NCBI RefSeq assembly: GCF_021379005.1
Contig: NZ_CP075171.1
Coordinates: forward strand, 1,302,001-1,366,000
Origin: Leptodesmis sichuanensis A121
Lineage (GTDB): Bacteria > Cyanobacteriota > Cyanobacteriia > Leptolyngbyales > Leptolyngbyaceae
Direction: 5' to 3'
Length of the DNA stretch: 64,000 bases
The position numbers were made by a program, and so were the translations under genes. Positions 35,740 through 37,143 of the stretch are shown here, piece by piece (positions within the stretch are counted from its first letter, which is position 1; every line of letters begins with the position of its first letter). The notes beneath the pieces were generated by a model that saw only the letters and a list, made by a program, of their open reading frames with translations, did not search any database and was not told where the DNA came from.

Positions 35740-35892
35740 GCCTAATTTGGAAATTAACTTGAACAGCTTTCGTGGTTCAGGTTGGTTTCTAGAACGGAGG
35801 AACCAGTGTCCTTGGGGCGAATCTCAAAAGTACCTGAGAGAGGCACCTTCCAGCCTTAGCCCGTCAGCTAACTCCGTCGGCAATGGAAGGAG
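35740..35892 (+). promoter_or_regulatory. c-di-AMP riboswitch aptamer (ydaO/yuaA class)
   Basis: Three blocks of the ydaO-yuaA consensus occur in order: ACGGAGGAACC (35794-35804), TTGGGGCGAATCT (35812-35824) and CCGTCAGCTAACTCCGTCGG (35861-35880), followed by CAATGGAAGGAG. They align closely with the well-studied Thermoanaerobacter aptamer in order and spacing. The 5' border near the GCC at 35740 is estimated; the 5' half is less conserved. The class binds two c-di-AMP molecules and usually switches genes off. It precedes the universal stress protein gene by about 130 bases. Confidence 0.85.
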
Positions 35893-35969
35893 TACCCGAG
35901 ACTGAAGCTTTTACAGCAACCGTCGTAGGTGTCTCCTGGCAGTTACTCACCTGAATATCCTGTATTCCG

Positions 35970-36023
35970 GGTGGCTGTCGCCTAACCCACCTCTCGTTCA
36001 CACTCATTTCTGAGAGGTTTTTA
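35970..36023 (+). promoter_or_regulatory. Riboswitch expression platform hairpins
   Basis: ACCTCTC (35989-35995) pairs with GAGAGGT (36012-36018), a 7-bp stem followed by TTTTTA; GAGAGG is also the only Shine-Dalgarno-like tract before the GTG at 36026. An alternative stem, GGTGG (35970-35974) with CCACC (35987-35991), overlaps its left arm, so the two exclude each other. Confidence 0.55.
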
Positions 36024-36025
36024 CC

Positions 36026-36742
36026 GTGGAAATTTTACCCATGCTGGCCCGTCTAGAACATGCGCTCGGCTGCTCTGACCTGACCCGGCAAATGGTGTTG
36101 AAACCCAATCCTGTCATACCTTCTCGATCGCAGCGGGAGGACATTAATCTGGTCGTCGGTTACACCGACTCTCCTCAAAGCCATACCGCTCTGGACTTGA
36201 CCTTATGGATTGCCTATCAAACCCGGTTGGCAACGCGGAAAACTGTTACTGTTCAGGTCGTCTATGTCGTTGACCCAGACCAGTCTGGCTATCGTCAGCC
36301 TCGTTCTATTGATGCCGTCTTGCAAGCTGAGATGGACGATCGCAAGGTACCGCTTTATCAGTGTGGCAATACCTTAGAGCCGATTTCATGGATTACTGGA
36401 GCCGTTGCTCCGGAACTATCCACAAAAGCTGTGGCACTGGAGGTTGCTGCACGCCGCGATCGCTCCGCTGAACGGGATACCAACTGGCAGATTTACCAAT
36501 TTGAACAGGCCGATCGAATTCTCTGGCAGGCGCGAAATCTAGCCAACGAGTGGCGCGGCTGTTTAGAAACCCATCTCCGATTTGGTTCCGTCGCCACCGA
36601 ACTGCGGGATGTGGCCCGTAAGGAAGCCGCAACTGTATTAGTTGTCGGTTGTAAATCTGCGAATCACCCGATTGTGGAAGCCCTGGGGGATGATCTGCCC
36701 TGTCCGGTGCTGGGAATTCCACCGAGAGCCTGTAGACCTTAA
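36026..36742 (+). CDS. Universal stress protein-like protein under c-di-AMP riboswitch
   Basis: 238 residues. The UspA fold is seen in the opening strand INLVVGYTDSPQSHTALDLTLW (about 36-58) and the closing AATVLVVGCKSANHPIVEAL with PCPVLGIPP. The ATP-binding G-x2-G-x9-G(S/T) pattern is not clear, so it may be a non-ATP-binding type. A roughly 70-residue insertion (95-165) sits between the halves. The start is GTG at 36026, with GAGAGG nine bases upstream inside a hairpin; an ATG at codon 6 is an alternative. The riboswitch ties it to c-di-AMP, hence probably to osmotic or potassium stress. Confidence 0.75.
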   Translation: MEILPMLARLEHALGCSDLTRQMVLKPNPVIPSRSQREDINLVVGYTDSPQSHTALDLTLWIAYQTRLATRKTVTVQVVYVVDPDQSGYRQPRSIDAVLQAEMDDRKVPLYQCGNTLEPISWITGAVAPELSTKAVALEVAARRDRSAERDTNWQIYQFEQADRILWQARNLANEWRGCLETHLRFGSVATELRDVARKEAATVLVVGCKSANHPIVEALGDDLPCPVLGIPPRACRP

Positions 36743-36909: not shown

Positions 36910-37143
36910 ATGTCCATTGAGAGTGCGAGCCGATTTCTGGAAGCAGTAACTTATGATGAGTCCCTGCGAGATAAATTTGAGCAGGTTCAGTCTCCAGAGG
37001 AATTTTTAACCCTGACTCGGCAGTTGGGTTACAGCTTTACTACCGAGGAGTTATTGGGACTGGCCAAAGAGCAAAGTCAGGGAATTATGGTACGCCGCCA
37101 CACAGGGGTCTGGAAGTGGTTACGATCGGTTCACTGGCTGTAA
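36910..37143 (+). CDS. Nif11 domain protein
   Basis: 77 residues from MSIESASRFLEAV. The Nif11 helical domain covers 1-60, with FLTLTRQLGYSFTTEELLGLA as its hallmark. There is no double-glycine cleavage site or core peptide, so it is unlikely to be a RiPP precursor; free Nif11 proteins occur widely in cyanobacteria without known role. The frame is open 45 codons upstream, but the domain begins at the ATG 36910-36912 and the upstream part runs through a repeat hairpin, so it is left out. Confidence 0.82.
   Translation: MSIESASRFLEAVTYDESLRDKFEQVQSPEEFLTLTRQLGYSFTTEELLGLAKEQSQGIMVRRHTGVWKWLRSVHWL

Follow-up and report, generated by a model that had tools for sequence, protein, structure and literature searches.

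The gene for a divergent universal stress protein (Usp) in the cyanobacterium Leptodesmis sichuanensis A121 is preceded by a sequence that is almost certainly a c-di-AMP aptamer of the ydaO/yuaA riboswitch class, and the riboswitch very probably controls the gene. On balance, we favor the reading in which c-di-AMP, acting through this ydaO-type riboswitch in the usp leader, would turn the gene off by sequestering its Shine-Dalgarno (SD) sequence. In cyanobacteria, c-di-AMP is an osmotic-stress messenger, required for survival through the night and for salt acclimation, and to our knowledge few of its effectors there have been described; the pairing reported here ties a stress protein and a co-regulated transporter to that messenger. 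The riboswitch class is already known, also in cyanobacteria, and this Usp is a well-conserved and useful target of it. No report of a Usp gene under RF00379, the Rfam model of the class, was found in the open literature, a scope outside of which lie the founding gene lists (Nelson 2013, Block 2010). For a Usp, linkage to a riboswitch is a rare functional lead.

The aptamer and its pseudoknot

When the window, the whole 64 kb stretch of DNA that was analysed, was scanned against the full Rfam library, it gave a single match, to RF00379, with a cmscan score of 66.3 bits (gathering score 38, E 3.7e-13). The alignment takes in all 134 model positions (1-134), and inspection of alignment and sequence finds the conserved core blocks GGAACC, GGGG(C/U)GAAUC and CCCGUCAGCUAAC all present. 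Because the match is full length and so far over its gathering score, and because a Usp open reading frame begins 128 nt further on, it stands far above chance. The element lies in the 5' leader of usp, with a conserved SD hairpin (below) between it and the gene. In the genome of 5.35 Mb there are two RF00379 matches, the other scoring 65.0 bits at C1:3168512. Coordinates of all features are collected in Table 1.

The locus was originally picked out by a sequence-only reading, which named it a c-di-AMP riboswitch and proposed a search with the RF00379 covariance model; that search, together with the pseudoknot and the presence of a cyclase gene, supports the identification. The three consensus blocks it listed, ACGGAGGAACC (35794-35804), TTGGGGCGAATCT (35812-35824) and CCGTCAGCTAACTCCGTCGG (35861-35880), are exactly where it placed them, and the UspA-fold gene it put about 130 bases downstream is a genuine match to PF00582, with its GTG start 128 nt past the end of the aptamer match. 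Its outer limits of 35740-35892 were right as to locus, while the 5' end was some 15 nt early and the 3' end 5 nt short.

Table 1. Predicted features of the usp leader and gene, in window coordinates
Feature	Position	Strand	Basis
c-di-AMP riboswitch aptamer (RF00379), full length	35755..35897	+	cmscan 66.3 bits, gathering 38
Aptamer helix ACGGAG (35794-35799) / CTCCGT (35872-35877), enclosing the conserved GGAACC, GGGGCGAAUC and CCCGUCAGCUAAC blocks	35794..35877	+	RF00379 alignment
Pseudoknot CCUUCCA (35846-35852) / UGGAAGG (35884-35890)	35846..35890	+	loop/tail complementarity
Post-aptamer hairpin AGGAG...CTCCT	35888..35937	+	outside Rfam model; covariation
SD-sequestering hairpin ACCUCUC (35989-35995) / GAGAGGU (36012-36018)	35989..36018	+	covariation
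Universal stress protein family gene, 238 aa, GTG start	36026..36742	+	PF00582 42 bits, cut-off 24

Complementarity between the loop and tail strands, of at least 5 bp, was found in 136 of 136 cyanobacterial aptamers, and pairs taken from the same aptamer had a mean score of 16.5, compared to a permuted mean of 14.4 and a permuted maximum of 14.8. The pseudoknot of the usp aptamer occupies the same place as CUCCUUCG/CGAAGGAG, the pseudoknot of the crystallised ydaO RNA (sequence in PMC5393176). Its sequence follows the target gene: Usp leaders have CCUUCC/GGAAGG and most others UCUCUC/GAGAGG, which is also the form that mostly sets slr0753-like leaders apart from the Usp class among the 136 aptamers. 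In most ABC and sucrose-phosphate-synthase-like leaders, and in many permease leaders, the form seen was UCUCUC/GAGAGG.

The post-aptamer hairpin shares its first three bases (35888-35890) with the pseudoknot strand. Across 25 distinct leaders, 93.8% of the cells in its stem are paired, with nine changes on both sides, against 63.6% at most in slid controls; this covariation was shown for the Usp class only. By eye, leaders of several target classes in cyanobacteria also have hairpin-like sequences just 3' of the aptamer.

Conservation of the pairing and the c-di-AMP regulon

RF00379 is present in 93 of 386 cyanobacterial genomes and relatives of this Usp in 52 of the same 386; in 41 of those 52, an RF00379 match precedes the Usp match by 100-672 nt. 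A named collection, searched for the core CCGTCAGCYAA, has it 145-307 nt upstream of usp in 71 of the best 80 orthologs, and Rfam adds two more, bringing the number with a riboswitch before usp to 73 of those 80. The two sets overlap in species and are two views of the pairing, not independent samples. Named orthologs with the riboswitch come from Nostoc, Anabaena, Dolichospermum, Tolypothrix, Leptolyngbya, Stenomitos and Myxacorys, and span Nostocales, Leptolyngbyaceae and others. Most genomes with this Usp have RF00379 upstream of it, which makes the association an old one that has been retained; the suggestion of the sequence-only reading that a Usp is a cyanobacterial target of the class is borne out in both sets.

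Eleven orthologs had no RF00379 match, and in nine of these, rescanned with permissive Rfam filters, no aptamer was found. A motif search showed that two of the nine (genomes G340 and G042) hold an interrupted aptamer. At these two loci, L057 and L058, the 3' half of the aptamer is at the right distance from usp and the SD hairpin is intact; in one, about 270 nt separate GGAACC from CCCGUCAG, and in the other the 5' half has been replaced. Usp orthologs at L217, L232 and L249 have the SD hairpin and no detectable aptamer.

A search of the genome for a diadenylate cyclase, another check that had been suggested at the outset, found one DAC-domain protein (PF02457, 133.6 bits), encoded between lysA-like and uppS-like open reading frames. 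With this one PF02457 protein and the RF00379 matches, the genome therefore has a source of the messenger as well as an aptamer for it.

The first genes downstream of cyanobacterial riboswitches, with names outside the Pfam-tested ones resting on a reading of the sequences, comprise 50 NrtB/SsuC-like ABC permeases, 39 copies of this Usp, 33 slr0753-like permeases (PF03600), four sucrose-phosphate-synthase-like glycosyltransferases, three Na+/H+ antiporters and a few singletons. Usp is thus the second commonest target, behind the NrtB-like ABC transporter. Sixteen genomes show the order riboswitch, ABC operon, second riboswitch, usp, with the ABC genes directly upstream of usp and, in nearly all sixteen, about 3.4-4 kb between the two riboswitches. 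At G382:C1:4381182-4385101, for example, two riboswitches on the same strand are about 3.5 kb apart, the ABC operon coming first and usp after it. The other riboswitch of L. sichuanensis heads the same ABC operon (L171:4501-8775, equivalent to G000:C1:3168512-3172786), which consists of genes for an NrtB-like permease, an NMT1-like binding protein and an NrtC/D-like ATPase, followed by an ExoD gene. From the tandem order and from the position of this genome's second riboswitch, the Usp and the NrtB-like transporter thus share a c-di-AMP regulon.

We propose that the Usp would form part of a c-di-AMP regulon for solute and ion transport, whose other members would be the NrtB-like ABC transporter, the slr0753-like permease, the sucrose-phosphate-synthase-like glycosyltransferase and the Na+/H+ antiporter. 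Cyanobacterial members of the riboswitch class have been linked to osmoprotectants (PMC5986932), from which we infer that the NrtB-like system may be a transporter of solutes or osmolytes. A Usp family under a riboswitch in dozens of genomes, with an ABC transporter adjoining or co-regulated, makes a concrete regulon to test. At L025 (G014:C1:2137082), a c-di-AMP riboswitch was also seen before a gene that by eye resembles those for P-type cation ATPases.

The expression platform and the direction of switching

The 3' arm of the SD hairpin contains GAGAGG, the likely SD sequence, 7-9 nt ahead of the start codon in the aligned leaders; that codon is GTG in 36 of 37 aligned orthologs. Among 23 distinct leaders, 95.0% of cells in the stem are paired, against no more than 61.5% in slid controls, with covariation from UA to CG, and CYUCUC/GAGARG pairs at six of six positions in 32 of the 37 aligned leaders. 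Of the 71 named orthologs that carry the aptamer, 68 have the hairpin, at a fixed spacing to the start. Because it is kept at L217, L232 and L249, where no aptamer is detectable, the hairpin may serve some separate purpose besides switching.

A chance match, or a decayed and functionless aptamer, is exceedingly improbable for a full-length hit of 66.3 bits with an intact and covarying pseudoknot, whose linkage to usp is kept in most genomes that have the gene. Rather doubtful, though far less so, is an arrangement in which the same riboswitch, like that of Bacillus ydaO, would use its distal hairpin as an intrinsic terminator, with c-di-AMP causing premature termination before usp. Published members of the class do terminate transcription (PMC9960051), and UUUUU follows the stem in the window's copy. 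That U-run, however, is missing from the other 36 aligned leaders, a T-run of at least four follows the hairpin in none of the 71 named orthologs, and the stem ends just 8 nt from the start codon, with the SD sequence as its 3' arm. A scan of the leader for intrinsic terminators found none, the loop of this hairpin being too long for the scan, and the hairpin has a predicted energy of -9.4 kcal/mol (z -0.85). Termination was accordingly dropped as the main reading, and since the U-run follows the hairpin in the window's copy only, the terminator look of that copy is probably incidental. With the U-run unconserved and the hairpin in 68 of 71 orthologs, the evidence favors SD sequestration over termination, and the platform is likely translational. 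This points to translation as a possible level of control for c-di-AMP riboswitches in cyanobacteria, whereas the best-studied examples terminate transcription.

As to direction, the known members of the class are OFF switches (PMC9960051), and we consider it likely that c-di-AMP would lower Usp production here as well. When the native aptamer core was imposed in folding, the predicted probability of the SD hairpin increased from 0.58 to 0.78 as a mean of 30 leaders (about 12 rose, three fell) and from 0.31 to 1.00 in this leader; this is weak evidence for OFF, because fixing any structure removes competitors and the rise may be generic. The opposite sign, in which c-di-AMP would free the SD sequence and Usp would rise with the messenger, has an intuitive appeal, as a stress messenger would induce a stress protein, and binding could remodel the leader either way, given the overlap of pseudoknot strand and post-aptamer hairpin; it nevertheless appears unlikely against the behavior of known class members and a model in which the imposed aptamer favors the SD hairpin. 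It is also somewhat unlikely that the SD hairpin constitutes a control element in its own right, such as a thermosensor or a target of an sRNA or protein, while the aptamer acts elsewhere, for instance on RNA stability. The three orthologs that keep the hairpin with no detectable aptamer would fit such a division, as would the outcome of two permutation tests, in which no conserved pairing of aptamer to hairpin was found; the presence of the hairpin in nearly all aptamer-bearing named orthologs, at fixed spacing, speaks against it.

In those tests, a candidate anti-sequestor made of the anti-SD arm and a GAGAG strand of the aptamer was rejected, own-partner pairing being no better than permuted (P 0.98), as was pairing with the GAAGCGGAGG strand, which recurs in several ensembles yet also did no better with its own partner than with permuted ones (P 0.32). 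The pseudoknot strand was rejected as a trigger; blocking it left SD pairing nearly the same (0.916 to 0.915).

In the favored reading, that of an OFF switch working by SD sequestration, c-di-AMP would lock the aptamer and its pseudoknot, and in the locked state the distal hairpin would bury the SD sequence that precedes GTG, a weak start codon. As c-di-AMP drops, the leader would rearrange and the SD sequence open. The Usp so produced may act like TeaD of Halomonas, tuning the co-regulated transporter.

The Usp protein and comparison with known systems

Members of the RF00379 class include ydaO/kimA of Bacillus and nlpC of Corynebacterium. The usp riboswitch resembles the class in its full aptamer model, pseudoknot, position in a 5' leader and, probably, OFF logic; it differs in that its target is a stand-alone Usp, in an apparent SD-sequestering platform in place of a terminator, and in having a further hairpin after the aptamer, which the Rfam model does not include. 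The sequence-only reading had described the class as best known in Firmicutes, to which it is not confined: a cyanobacterial member, that of Synechocystis slr0753, is cited as verified in PMC10117731 (from Mantovani et al. 2022). That switch is of the same class and phylum and is described in PMC10117731 as c-di-AMP-dependent; its gene encodes an ion permease, while the switch studied here precedes a Usp.

Of the genome's 18 matches to the Usp domain, this protein scores lowest. Two conserved halves, N-terminal (VGYxxSPxSxTALD) and C-terminal (HLRFG...LGCxSxxHPxI...VLGIP), flank a variable insert. Modelled with AlphaFold from 11 orthologs, the protein has a mean pLDDT of 70, with values below 50 for residues 87-144, the insert. 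Foldseek matches to the model are almost all Usp proteins, and TeaD (PDB 3HGM) ranks third, at 13% identity. The motif G-x2-G-x9-G(S/T) of ATP-binding UspFG-type proteins is absent from the beta4-alpha4 loop, which reads GCKSANHPIVEALGDD; the first glycine alone is kept, as Gly208 here, and is invariant in the 11 orthologs.

TeaD of Halomonas elongata is a Usp whose gene accompanies those of TeaABC, a TRAP transporter of ectoine, and deletion of teaD raises ectoine uptake while leaving teaA mRNA unchanged (PMC2964678). Besides the fold, the two proteins have in common a gene next to a solute transporter; the transporters belong to different families and sequence identity is low, and the parallel is functional only, an analogy apart from the shared fold. 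A TeaD-like role is a tentative possibility for the Usp, and it fits because the gene adjoins, or is co-regulated with, an ABC transporter in the regulon of an osmotic messenger. We know of no riboswitch at the TeaD locus.

The USP domain of KdpD from Staphylococcus aureus is a c-di-AMP receptor. It has the same fold and, like our Usp, does not have the complete ATP motif, the first glycine being kept. Its published c-di-AMP motif, (A/G/C)XSXSX2N(Y/F) (PMC8214093), was not found in this Usp, which has VGYTDSPQSHTALD at that place, and unlike the KdpD domain this protein is not part of a sensor kinase. That the Usp would itself be a nucleotide sensor, perhaps of c-di-AMP, and regulate the NrtB-like ABC transporter as TeaD does TeaABC, seems quite improbable. 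On such a reading the protein would perhaps have lost the ATP triphosphate loop and kept the ribose-contacting glycine, like the KdpD domain; if true, a single messenger would govern how much of a transporter is made and how active it is, by way of an RNA receptor and a protein receptor. Downstream of usp, positions 36913-37143 of the window (plus strand) encode a 76-aa Nif11-domain protein (PF07862).
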